Shown here: in pieces, positions 47,201 through 49,592 of the stretch
How the letters are laid out: every line of letters starts with the position of its first letter
Numbering within the stretch: the first letter of the stretch is position 1
Assembly (NCBI RefSeq): GCF_014084105.1
Contig: NZ_CP048289.1
Location: 4,101,922 to 4,165,921 of the forward strand
DNA: 64,000 nucleotides
Direction: 5' to 3'
Source: Streptacidiphilus sp. P02-A3a
GTDB lineage: Bacteria; Actinomycetota; Actinomycetes; Streptomycetales; Streptomycetaceae
Notes under the pieces: generated by a model
Told to the model about the DNA's origin: nothing
Databases searched by the model: none
What the model saw: only the letters and a program-made list of their open reading frames with translations
Position numbers and translations under genes: made by a program

Positions 47201-49592
47201 CGGCGTCGAACAGGTCGGCCTGGACGACGACTTCTTCGACCTGGGCGGACACTCGCTGCTCGCGATCCAGGTCATCGCCAAGCTGCGCACGGCGCTGCCG
47301 CCCGGCGGTCGCCAGGTCGGCCTGGTCGACATGTTCTCCGCGCGCACCGTGGACGAGTTGGCGGCGCTGGCCGCCGAGCCCGCCAGCGACGGCCCCCGGC
47401 CACTGCTGCAACGGCTCACCGGCCGCCGCGCGGCCACCGTCAGCTACGTCTGCGTGCCGTACGGCTCCGGCAGCGCCATCGTCTACCAGCCGCTCGCCGA
47501 CGAACTGCCCAGGAACGCCGTGCTGTACGCGCTCTCCATCCCCGGCAACGACATCGGCCTGGACGAGGAGCCGATGGAGTTCGACGAGCTGGCGGCGCGT
47601 ACCACCGAGGAGATCCTCGCCATCGAGGGCCCGCTGGTGGTGTACGGCCACTGCGGCGTCGGCGCCGCGCTCGCGGTCGAGCTGGCCCGGCGGGTGGAGG
47701 CGGCCGGACGGCGGGTGGAGGCCGTCTACATCGGCGCGATCTTCCCCTTCGCCAAGCCCGGCGGCCTGTGGCGCAGGCTCCGGAGCCCGGAGACCTTCAA
47801 CCGGCTCCGCAGCAGCCAGCGCGACCTGGACTCGCTCAAGGCGCGCGGCGTCGACCTGGACGAGCTGGAACCGGGTGTCGCCGACCGGATCATCCGGACC
47901 ATGCGGCACGACTCGCTCGCCGCCGAGAAGTACTTCACCGGCCTGTTCGACCAGCCGGGCCGGGCCCGGCTGCGCGCGCCGATCATCTCGGTGGTGGGCG
48001 ACCGCGACCCGGCGACCGCGATGTACGAGGAGCGCTACCGGGAGTGGCGGTTCCTCACCGACACCTCCGCGCTGGTGGTGCTGGACGAGGGCGGTCACTT
48101 CTTCCTGCGCTACCGCGCGGCGGAGGTCGCCGACGTGCTGCTGACCCACACCCGGTTGGACGCGCCACCGCCCCGGACCGACACCGACACCTGGTGGGTG
48201 CAGGACGTCGCCACCCCGCAGTCGCAACCGGCGGCGTCGCCAAACGGGGACGTCCGGCCCAGCATGGGACGGTTCCTGGTGGTCGCCGGGGGCCAGCAGA
48301 TCTCGCTGATCGGCTCGGCGCTGACCGGGTGGGCACTGCCGATCACGGTACTGGTGCACTCGAAGTCGATCGGCCAGTTCTCGCTGCTGGCCGTGCTCAA
48401 CCTGGTGGGCCTGGTGATCTCGCCGCTGGCCGGGGCGATCGTGGACCGGGGGAGCCGCAGACAGGTGATGATGGCCGCCGACTGCGCCTCGGGCGCGATC
48501 GAGGCGGTGGTCGCGGTGCTGGTGCTCACCGGCCACATCCAGCTGTGGGAGATCTACCTGCTGATCACCTCGCTGTCGGTGACCACCACCTTCCAACGGC
48601 TGGCGTACTCCTCGGCGGTGCCGCAACTGGTGCCCAAGCAGTACGTCGGGCACGCGATGGGCGTGACCCAGATGACCAACGGGGTGGCGCAACTGGTGGT
48701 GCCGCTGGTCGCGGCGGGCCTGCTCGGTCTGATCGGCCTGGGCGGGATCGTGGTGGTCGACGTGGTCAGCTACGCCTTCGCGATCGGTGTGGTGCTGTTC
48801 GTCCGATTCCCCAACACCCTGCCCTGGCGGCCGAAGGAGCCGCTGACCACGGAGATCGCCAAGGGCTTCAGCTACACCTGGAACGATCGCGGACTGCGCT
48901 CGATCCTGGCGTTCTTCGCGGTCCTGAACATCTTCATGTCGCCGTTGCTGCTGCTGGTCTCACCGCTGGTGCTGTCCTTCGGGACGCTCACCGACGTGGG
49001 GTGGATCTCGCTGGTCAGCGGCCTGGGGGTGATGCTCGGCGGAACCACCATGGCGCTGTGGGGCGGACCGCGCCAACGCCGGTTCCACGGGGTGCTGATC
49101 GCGACGGTGGCCATGTCCGTGGCCGGAGTACTGGTCAGCCTGCGGCCGTCGCTGGTGCTGATCGGCGTCGGGGCGTTCGCCCTGACGTACGCGTTGACCA
49201 TCATGAACACCGTGTACTCGACCATCGTGCAGATCAAGGTGCCGTACCGGTACCACGGGCGGGTGTTCGCGCTGAACACGCTGGTGGCCTGGTCCACCCT
49301 GCCGATCGGGATGGGCCTGGTCGCGCCGTTCGGGTCGGAGCTGTTCAACCGGCTGCTGGCGGTGCACGGCGCGCTGGCGTCCACGGCCGGTGCGGTCGTC
49401 GGCACCGGACCCGGGCGCGGCACCGCGCTGATGTTCCTGCTCTGCTCGGTCGGCATGCTGCTGGTCGTCGGCGGTGCGCTGTGGATTCCCAGGCTGGCGC
49501 GGTTCGACACCGACATGCCGGACGCGCAGCCGGACGACCTGCTCGGGGTGGAGGCCCTGGCGGAGAAGCGGAAGCAGCCCGTGGACGCCTGA
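44229..49592 (+). CDS. NRPS-transporter fusion: C-A-PCP-TE-MFS
   Basis: A 1787-residue protein. The order is C (HHIVADG near 165), A ([13 protein letters not shown] near 635), PCP (LGGHSLL, Ser 1009), TE (about 1060-1310) and a 10-12-span MFS permease (about 1345-1770). My specificity code is DVWHISLIDK, very close to known serine codes such as DVWHLSLIDK. The TE elbow reads YGHCGVG: Cys1142 replaces the usual Ser, with Asp near 1258 and His1290 in EGGHFF. Cys nucleophiles are known in TEs that close strained rings (ObiF beta-lactone, SulM beta-lactam). It is the last gene of the operon and probably adds the final residue, releases the product and exports it. ATG 44229 overlaps the E2 stop. 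A strong terminator follows. Confidence 0.96.
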   Translation: MSAVELSEAKRELLRRRLSTRRQGQAVPRRPEGSEPVLAPAQEPIWFMEHFAPGTATYTITLAARLRGPLDTERLRLALAELPTRHDSLRHRFPATTDGRPDVRLLPRTEVPLARAEAATDEETVARISAEGGEPLDPAQGPLLRALLIARGPDDHVLALLTHHIVADGQSAQLLMHDLLALYRGEAPEPPSVSFGDIAAWQRERPLERETGYWTTQLADLPRLELTTDQPRPARQDFAGASTVRLLDAELTEQLTELGRRQGATRFMTVLAGFQALLHRYTGQGEFGVGMPVAGRTRAEFEDVVGMFVNTLVLRARLADDPTFAELLTRARDVVIDALDCQELPFARLVEALNVPRDPSRQPLVDALFSMHDFPAASGSDGPLQVEDYPLAPGSSRHDLELYVVPAPDGGLACTFTYRTTLFDADTIERMAGHLESLLRAAVARPDTRVSRLPLLGPDERALIDGWNDTATGFPSAQTLHGLVQAQVLRTPGATAVTFRGSSLSYAQLDARANQVAHRLLAEGVGPGTLVGVCAERSPELVVGLLGVLKAGAAYLPLDPEYPAGRLEFMLDDAAAPIVLTQTRLLAEEPLHALADAGTQLLPLDRAELWDPQPTTAPERTADPSAAAYMIYTSGSTGRPKGVPTGHRAIVNRLDWMQRRYRLGADDTVLQKTPAGFDVSVWEFFWPLLAGARLLLAEPGGHRDPAYLRELIEAEGVTTAHFVPSMLGLFLAEEGVGRCDSLRRIICSGEELPVDLALRCLRTLPAELHNLYGPTEAAIDVSAWQCTPEALAGRARVPIGRPIHNAELHVLDQHREPVPVGVPGELYLGGVAVASGYHRRPELTAERFVDGRYRTGDAARRLPDGTVEFLGRLDQQVKLRGLRIELGEIEAALRERAGAREAVVTVSEDQRLIAYLVGGPTEAARVRDAIRGTLPEYMLPSMVVPLDALPLTPNGKLDRRALPAPEVATAAYRAPETDAQRAIAAVWSEVLGVEQVGLDDDFFDLGGHSLLAIQVIAKLRTALPPGGRQVGLVDMFSARTVDELAALAAEPASDGPRPLLQRLTGRRAATVSYVCVPYGSGSAIVYQPLADELPRNAVLYALSIPGNDIGLDEEPMEFDELAARTTEEILAIEGPLVVYGHCGVGAALAVELARRVEAAGRRVEAVYIGAIFPFAKPGGLWRRLRSPETFNRLRSSQRDLDSLKARGVDLDELEPGVADRIIRTMRHDSLAAEKYFTGLFDQPGRARLRAPIISVVGDRDPATAMYEERYREWRFLTDTSALVVLDEGGHFFLRYRAAEVADVLLTHTRLDAPPPRTDTDTWWVQDVATPQSQPAASPNGDVRPSMGRFLVVAGGQQISLIGSALTGWALPITVLVHSKSIGQFSLLAVLNLVGLVISPLAGAIVDRGSRRQVMMAADCASGAIEAVVAVLVLTGHIQLWEIYLLITSLSVTTTFQRLAYSSAVPQLVPKQYVGHAMGVTQMTNGVAQLVVPLVAAGLLGLIGLGGIVVVDVVSYAFAIGVVLFVRFPNTLPWRPKEPLTTEIAKGFSYTWNDRGLRSILAFFAVLNIFMSPLLLLVSPLVLSFGTLTDVGWISLVSGLGVMLGGTTMALWGGPRQRRFHGVLIATVAMSVAGVLVSLRPSLVLIGVGAFALTYALTIMNTVYSTIVQIKVPYRYHGRVFALNTLVAWSTLPIGMGLVAPFGSELFNRLLAVHGALASTAGAVVGTGPGRGTALMFLLCSVGMLLVVGGALWIPRLARFDTDMPDAQPDDLLGVEALAEKRKQPVDA

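Follow-up and report, generated by a model that had tools for sequence, protein, structure and literature searches.

A cysteine thioesterase fused to a major facilitator exporter in Streptacidiphilus sp. P02-A3a and its relatives: a possible ObiF-like route to peptidyl-serine beta-lactones

ObiF carries the one thioesterase (TE) named as a beta-lactone former in the available sections of three papers on nonribosomal peptide synthetase (NRPS) TEs (PMC6668435, PMC11298585, PMC11536411), and it is to those sections that the cited statements in this text refer. The aspartate (Asp) of the catalytic triad is located at position II in ObiF and SulM, a placement not shared by EntF or by almost any other NRPS TE of solved structure (PMC6668435, PMC11298585). 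BulbE-TE, also a cysteine (Cys) TE, has its Asp at position I and forms a 15-atom macrolactam (PMC11536411). Among the NRPS TEs covered there, the combination of Cys with a position-II Asp is common only to the two strained-ring enzymes, ObiF and SulM. The present analysis concerns an NRPS gene of Streptacidiphilus sp. P02-A3a whose product ends in a TE of this triad class followed by a major facilitator superfamily (MFS) exporter domain. The window, that is, the whole stretch of DNA analysed, comprises 64,000 nucleotides (contig NZ_CP048289.1, positions 4,101,922 to 4,165,921, forward strand). An ObiF-like release of peptidyl-serine as a beta-lactone, followed by export, is proposed as a reading whose chance of being correct we place somewhat short of even.

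The gene is read as a single frame of condensation (C), adenylation (A), peptidyl carrier (PCP or T), TE and MFS domains (Table 1), and its start codon overlaps the stop codon of the E2-like gene upstream. The Pfam AMP-binding match covers residues 485-838, with its C-terminal domain at residues 888-956, and the MFS_1 match spans residues 1358-1689 in the same reading frame as the NRPS portion. An earlier sequence-only reading had recognised a Cys TE behind an A domain, which Pfam and alignment support, and had overlooked the C-terminal exporter. It had also described the TE elbow as GHCGVG, with Cys1142 in place of serine (Ser) and the Asp and histidine (His) partners kept. This description is accurate, and the triad is conserved in all 82 loci of a set of relatives (L082-L163) defined below; because Cys occupies the same position throughout that set, Cys1142 is neither a chance occurrence nor a sequencing slip. 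Asp1260 aligns with ObiF Asp1254 (paper numbering; residue 1274 of the chain), whereas the equivalence of Ala1170 with ObiF Gly1173 at position I was counted from the Cys, allowing for a one-residue insertion. As in ObiF, a His precedes the nucleophile. The elbow itself, GxCxxG, holds one residue more before the helix than GxCxG (C-G-V-G versus C-A-G in ObiF), and the near relatives of the window TE have the same extension.

Kinship with ObiF is found by sequence, profile, fold and tree. A single-sequence search of solved chains returned ObiF1 first (2.8e-30) and the type II TE 6vap next (2.8e-19), with SulM at 8.6e-9, ranked after RifR. A profile built from 22 family TEs matched ObiF1 at 1.7e-54, 6vap at 1.8e-31 and, third, SulM at 2.4e-24, followed by SrfAD and RifR; AB3403, a Cys TE with a position-I Asp, reached only 7.9e-8, and the EntF, Vlm2, NocB and surfactin TEs lay near 1e-3 to 1e-2. 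When an AlphaFold2 model of the TE, made from the family alignment (predicted local distance difference test score 82), was compared with the PDB by Foldseek, ObiF1 ranked first (9.2e-19) and SulM second (1.2e-14). In a 69-row tree, the family, ObiF and SulM were separated from type I and type II TEs with split support of 98/95.9. In a 70-row tree, ObiF joined the TE-MFS family and three MFS-less TEs (48 rows, 97/88), a clade that excludes SulM and the DIWQSTADDK group introduced below. A clade of the 56 family rows with ObiF and without SulM was not rejected (approximately unbiased test, p 0.534), which is no proof of such a clade. The family rows comprised the window and 55 of 122 family loci; EntF, BulbE, AB3403 and RedJ were left out, as were 7 of 16 own-genome TEs from the 70-row tree (stops, no motif, or short) and L175 from the 69-row tree (wrong frame). 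On the family tree the nucleophile changes three times between Cys and Ser. The sequence-only reading had likened the TE to ObiF and SulM and had asked whether it would instead cluster with ordinary hydrolytic or type II TEs; the tree groups it with ObiF and SulM, in agreement with sequence, fold and the position of the triad Asp, and the window TE is neither an ordinary type I nor an ordinary type II TE.

Type II hydrolases are nevertheless its next relatives by both profile and fold, and related A-T-TE units beside TauD genes, with a Ser or a Cys nucleophile, resemble hydrolytic releasers. Such evidence would fit simple hydrolysis, in which a linear peptide with a free C-terminal Ser is exported and the Ser is kept for the sake of the product and not of the TE. 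This explanation appears improbable in view of the Cys retained in 82 of 82 loci: in ObiF and BulbE, exchange of Cys for Ser replaces ring closure by hydrolysis (PMC6668435, PMC11536411), so that conservation of Cys would be unexpected in a TE that did nothing but hydrolyse.

The second line of evidence is the residue presented to the TE. The terminal A domain, read by alignment, has the code DVWHISLIDK, which we take to be a Ser code. Among the 122 family loci, 120 terminal A domains were readable and 92 of these were Ser-type. Six loci had been fetched twice, all of them Ser-type (L042/L084, L043/L085, L044/L087, L045/L089, L046/L090 and L047/L158), and without the repeats the count is 86 of 114. 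By comparison, Ser-type codes were found in 3 of 151 A domains elsewhere in these loci (repeats kept) and in 2 of 52 readable A domains of control loci, after removal of the window itself from 3 of 53. The controls were 61 distinct loci near TEs of the same genome and its relatives (56 with an A domain, 53 readable), the TEs having been located either with the Pfam family or with a pair of type I TEs as queries, with nucleophiles not checked individually. The family count is inflated by kinship, as many loci are Micromonospora orthologues; when TEs with a GHC[GA]xG elbow are clustered at 80% identity, 22 of 30 clusters hold a Ser member. Ser is also kept despite differing upstream codes: 38 of the 86 distinct Ser-type loci hold an asparagine-type code, while Gly-type (DILQ/DIVQ) and DxExIGT/S codes besides the terminal one occur in 23 of the 86 and in 4 of 30 others. 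The suggestion that the last carrier-bound residue is probably Ser agrees with the Ser-type code that is read and conserved before the TE, the meaning of that code being our assumption.

A conserved Ser fits a different outcome as well, since its hydroxyl is also needed for oligomerisation. EntF, a C-A(Ser)-T-TE module with a Ser nucleophile, makes an oligomeric Ser lactone, and EntS is an MFS exporter. By analogy, the Cys TE could oligomerise and cyclise, the Ser hydroxyl of one chain attacking the thioester of another, and the resulting dimer or trimer lactone would leave through the MFS domain. In domain order the window protein corresponds to EntF; the EntF model of NCBIfam aligns with residues 38-1164, scoring 566 bits (under its cut-off of 2400), and MFS_3 matches the exporter domain. 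Unlike EntF, however, the TE combines Cys with a position-II triad Asp; the EntF TE is very distant from it (about 1e-3 by the family profile), and no dihydroxybenzoate pathway is apparent among the annotated window genes, although no search was aimed at one. Oligomerising release is considered unlikely on balance.

TE-MFS proteins are widespread in actinobacteria. Among genomes of the same family as the window's, 84 of 394 have a TE match at 1e-30 or better, and in a phylum-wide spread 4 of 396 have one at 1e-28 or better, including the window's own genome. Scanning a species-level set of genomes yielded 414 pattern hits; a relative at E 1e-3 or better is encoded at 403 of them, though these relatives need not all have the triad class or the Ser-type code. 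The best 80 were inspected and, with two plasmid loci, form the 82-locus set. Within it, the MFS domain is fused to the TE in 81 loci, the exception (L108) lying on a contig of 4 kb that stops shortly beyond the TE, and the terminal code is Ser-type in 75. The genera represented include Micromonospora, Microbispora, Nonomuraea, Planotetraspora, Actinacidiphila, Streptomyces, Kibdelosporangium and Actinokineospora. A second set of 40 loci, picked across the identity range and including six on the same contigs as species-level loci, is more varied: it contains TE-MFS proteins whose elbow reads GHCLG or GHCVG and whose codes differ, a single TE-MFS protein with a Ser nucleophile and a non-Ser code (L048), and C-A(Thr)-T-TE proteins without MFS.

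Several of these variants deserve separate mention. Two C-A-T-TE proteins without MFS (L061 and L065), with the threonine-like code DFWSVGMVHK and a GHCAG elbow, lie near ObiF in the tree and are, judging from their sequences, candidate threonine beta-lactone lines. Two TE-MFS proteins (L100 and L101, the latter from Kibdelosporangium banguiense) have the Cys-like terminal code DLYNMSLI-K, and their product could be a beta-thiolactone if the chemistry resembles that of ObiF. Eight A-T-TE proteins (L063, L064, L066, L067, L070, L071, L072 and L074) combine the code DIWQSTADDK or DIWQSTTDDK with a TE resembling those of ObiF and SulM; three of them use Cys as nucleophile and five use Ser. A TauD dioxygenase gene is located beside six of the seven DIWQSTADDK loci, and such units look as if they hydroxylate the carrier-bound amino acid and then release it. 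Since some relatives have Asp-like or unassigned codes, or use Ser as nucleophile, the clan as a whole cannot consist of beta-lactone formers alone. A general rule that Cys signifies a strained ring was likewise rejected, given the counterexample of BulbE (PMC11536411) and the family members with other codes.

The broader proposition that every member presents a beta-hydroxyl, examined with a TauD-relative profile and one cytochrome P450 query, was not upheld. A beta nucleophile is indicated in some non-Ser members, with a threonine code in two, a Cys-like code in two and a TauD gene beside one (L055). TauD was found near the single DFLKIASVAK locus and the six DIWQSTADDK loci mentioned above and near none of the other non-Ser classes, and the P450 query had no match in the 122 loci. 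TauD does not discriminate, because it also lies near 38 of the 92 Ser loci. These 38 are mostly Micromonospora, in which a polyketide synthase (PKS)-TauD-NRPS cluster ends in the Ser/Cys-TE/MFS module; in this group (L099, L102-L106 and others), the end of a PKS module (ketoreductase, dehydratase and carrier) and the TauD gene lie upstream.

With the ObiF mechanism as model (PMC6668435), beta-lactone release would proceed at the window protein as follows. The ObiF-like Cys TE would end a short acyl-peptide assembly line, receiving the acyl-peptidyl-Ser chain from the carrier domain as a thioester on Cys1142, with His1290 and Asp1260 as the activating residues. That Ser would then attack the thioester carbonyl through its own beta-hydroxyl, freeing an N-acyl-peptidyl serine beta-lactone, which the MFS domain of the same polypeptide would export. 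The extension of this scheme to a whole family is more doubtful: TE-MFS proteins may represent an undescribed actinobacterial family in which one polypeptide with an ObiF-like Cys TE both closes and exports a peptidyl-serine beta-lactone (a beta-thiolactone in members with a Cys-like code), with a Gly-type plus DxExIGT-type core before the terminal Ser in several lineages. Neither a TE-MFS fusion family nor an actinobacterial Cys-TE serine beta-lactone was found among the matches listed in the open-access literature.

A number of observations weigh against beta-lactone release. At 70% TE identity, a Ser member is present in only 9 of 14 same-elbow clusters, and Ser may be conserved because the module was inherited in one piece; across the 56 family rows of the tree, the code switches between Ser and non-Ser at least six times (with the unread L062 scored as non-Ser). 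For 11 of the 103 TEs that share the window elbow, no Ser code could be read; four of them have an Asp-like code (DFTKxxHVGK) and three DVRNTGIMDK, and no TauD was found in the loci (about 20 to 32 kb) of the members with these two codes. All seven inspected TE-MFS members with a GHCLG or GHCVG elbow have non-Ser codes, and the DIWQSTADDK A-T-TE members, whether their nucleophile is Cys or Ser, look hydrolytic from their sequences. Regarding the TE itself, the additional residue in the elbow might reshape the oxyanion hole, SulM forms a long branch in the tree, and in the Foldseek ranking type II TEs come close behind ObiF and SulM, which makes fold by itself a modest argument. No product of the cluster was found among the matches listed in the open-access literature. 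Finally, 8 of the 15 closest loci (L084, L087, L089-L093 and L098) have a gene of the enoyl-coenzyme A (CoA) hydratase family (36-38% identity) in the vicinity of the TE-MFS gene; it lies immediately downstream in four of them and, in four Microbispora, upstream.

This last point bears on a larger ring. In the window, enoyl-CoA hydratase and CoA-transferase genes adjoin the cluster (52172-54081), and macrolactonisation onto a 3-hydroxyacyl group had been named as the alternative in the sequence-only reading. More generally, the TE might close a larger ring or pass the chain to another acceptor, be it the 3-hydroxyacyl group, a side-chain or external amine, or the stand-alone C protein within the cluster, with Cys serving to provide a reactive thioester, as in BulbE, whose TE uses it for a macrolactam (PMC11536411). 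One upstream module, if its code is read as we presume below, may load a basic residue that could act in this way. On the other hand, BulbE has its Asp at position I (PMC11536411) and the window TE at position II, and three amino-acid modules leave few large-ring geometries. The nearby hydratases are nearest to different NCBIfam subfamilies: that of the window is above the NF006100 cut-off, while those of L084 and L091 match other models best, below cut-off, so that the hydratases of the closest loci apparently belong to several other subfamilies. In S. fragilis, S. abyssomicinicus and Nonomuraea dietziae, whose genomes contain all nine cluster genes, the 40 kb covered showed no hydratase, and the CoA-transferase had no match in the 15 closest loci (L084-L098). 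The 3-hydroxyacyl route is thereby weakened and is not needed, but it is not rejected, because a hydratase family gene is present in 8 of those 15 loci; as a class, larger rings or other nucleophiles seem rather improbable.

The nine cluster genes (Table 1) are found together in the three genomes just named, eight of them in the window's order and the DMFA2_C gene at the opposite cluster end. In shorter loci, seven of the nine occur in three Actinacidiphila strains, Streptomyces sp. NRRL F-5123 and Microbispora siamensis, and Thermocatellispora has most of them, rearranged. Elsewhere the association loosens: within 60 kb of A. epipremni, the DMFA2_C gene was not found and the stand-alone C protein had a match of merely 31%; within 40 kb around the gene in Streptosporangium carneum, only the two-module NRPS was found of the other eight; and in 40 kb around it in Microbispora sp. 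H13382, none of the other eight was found. The DMFA2_C gene also lies near the Cys-code relative in Kibdelosporangium. Of the upstream codes, DILQLGVIWK is presumably a glycine code, and DAEDIGTVIK is taken, with uncertainty, as perhaps basic. To the right of the cluster are transposase genes and a group II intron reverse transcriptase (54783-62069), and what appears to be another cluster, with type I PKS modules and a gene for a type II TE, lies at the left end of the window (10-14260). S. fragilis and Peterkaempfera griseoplana produce diazo compounds, which is regarded here as coincidence.

Table 1. Positions of the cluster genes, and of the domains and triad residues of the TE-MFS protein, within the window (aa, amino-acid residues)
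Feature	Coordinates	Strand	Details
Stand-alone condensation-like protein	30453..31721	-	CHLATDG in place of HHxxxDG
Two-module NRPS, C-A-T-C-A-T	31965..38174	-	codes DILQLGVIWK, DAEDIGTVIK
Stand-alone AMP-dependent acyl ligase	38403..39803	+	
C-T didomain protein	39800..41254	+	
2-oxo acid dehydrogenase E1 alpha-like	41251..42165	+	
2-oxo acid dehydrogenase E1 beta-like	42162..43145	+	
Lipoyl-bearing E2 acyltransferase-like	43138..44229	+	
NRPS gene, C-A-PCP-TE-MFS	44229..49592	+	1787 aa, single open frame
Condensation domain	44340..45617	+	aa 38-463 (Pfam), motif HHIVADG
Adenylation domain	45681..47096	+	aa 485-956, code DVWHISLIDK
Peptidyl carrier domain (PP-binding)	47172..47369	+	aa 982-1047, LGGHSLL
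Thioesterase domain	47448..48134	+	aa 1074-1302; Pfam Thioesterase E 7.8e-19; closest solved relative ObiF1
Cys1142, nucleophile	47652..47654	+	within elbow GHCGVG
Ala1170, triad position I	47736..47738	+	Asp in EntF-type TEs, Gly1173 in ObiF
Asp1260, triad Asp at position II	48006..48008	+	alignment to ObiF
His1290, triad His	48096..48098	+	alignment to ObiF
MFS exporter domain	48264..49589	+	aa 1346-1787, linker of about 40 aa before
DMFA2_C (dimethylformamidase beta-like) domain protein	49666..51603	-	

The family shares the triad class of ObiF and mostly a Ser-type terminal code, and many of its members reside in named strains. With this family, the function of a Cys TE with a position-II Asp becomes directly testable. 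The TE-MFS fusion offers a search handle for possible reactive peptides, and relatives in many actinobacteria, most of them seemingly Ser-ending, may make peptides with a reactive four-membered ring. If the fusion does couple release to export, it would be a simple protection of both cell and product.

Among known systems, ObiF1 of obafluorin biosynthesis (beta-lactone; PDB 6n8e) is closest to the window TE by sequence, profile and fold. The two have in common the C-A-PCP-TE order, a Cys after His, the position-II Asp and a small residue at position I. They differ in that the TEs are 34% identical, the window elbow is one residue longer, the ObiF A domain uses beta-hydroxy-homophenylalanine where that of the window is Ser-type, and the TE is followed by an MbtH-like domain in ObiF and by MFS in the window. 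SulM of sulfazecin biosynthesis (beta-lactam; PDB 8w2c), second by fold, likewise has a Cys nucleophile and a position-II Asp, but its TE is only about 20% identical, and its Gln-Cys-Asn motif and diaminopropionate A domain (PMC11298585) contrast with His-Cys-Gly and a Ser-type code. The type II TEs RifR, RedJ and BorB are alike in fold, with a position-II Asp in RifR and RedJ (PMC11298585); they are free-standing and form a separate tree group, whereas the window TE is placed in cis between PCP and MFS. BulbE-TE of bulbiferamide biosynthesis (macrolactam) shares the Cys nucleophile and differs in its position-I Asp (PMC11536411). The EntF TE of enterobactin biosynthesis, distant in sequence, also has its Asp at position I, where the window TE, with Cys1142 as nucleophile, has Ala1170.

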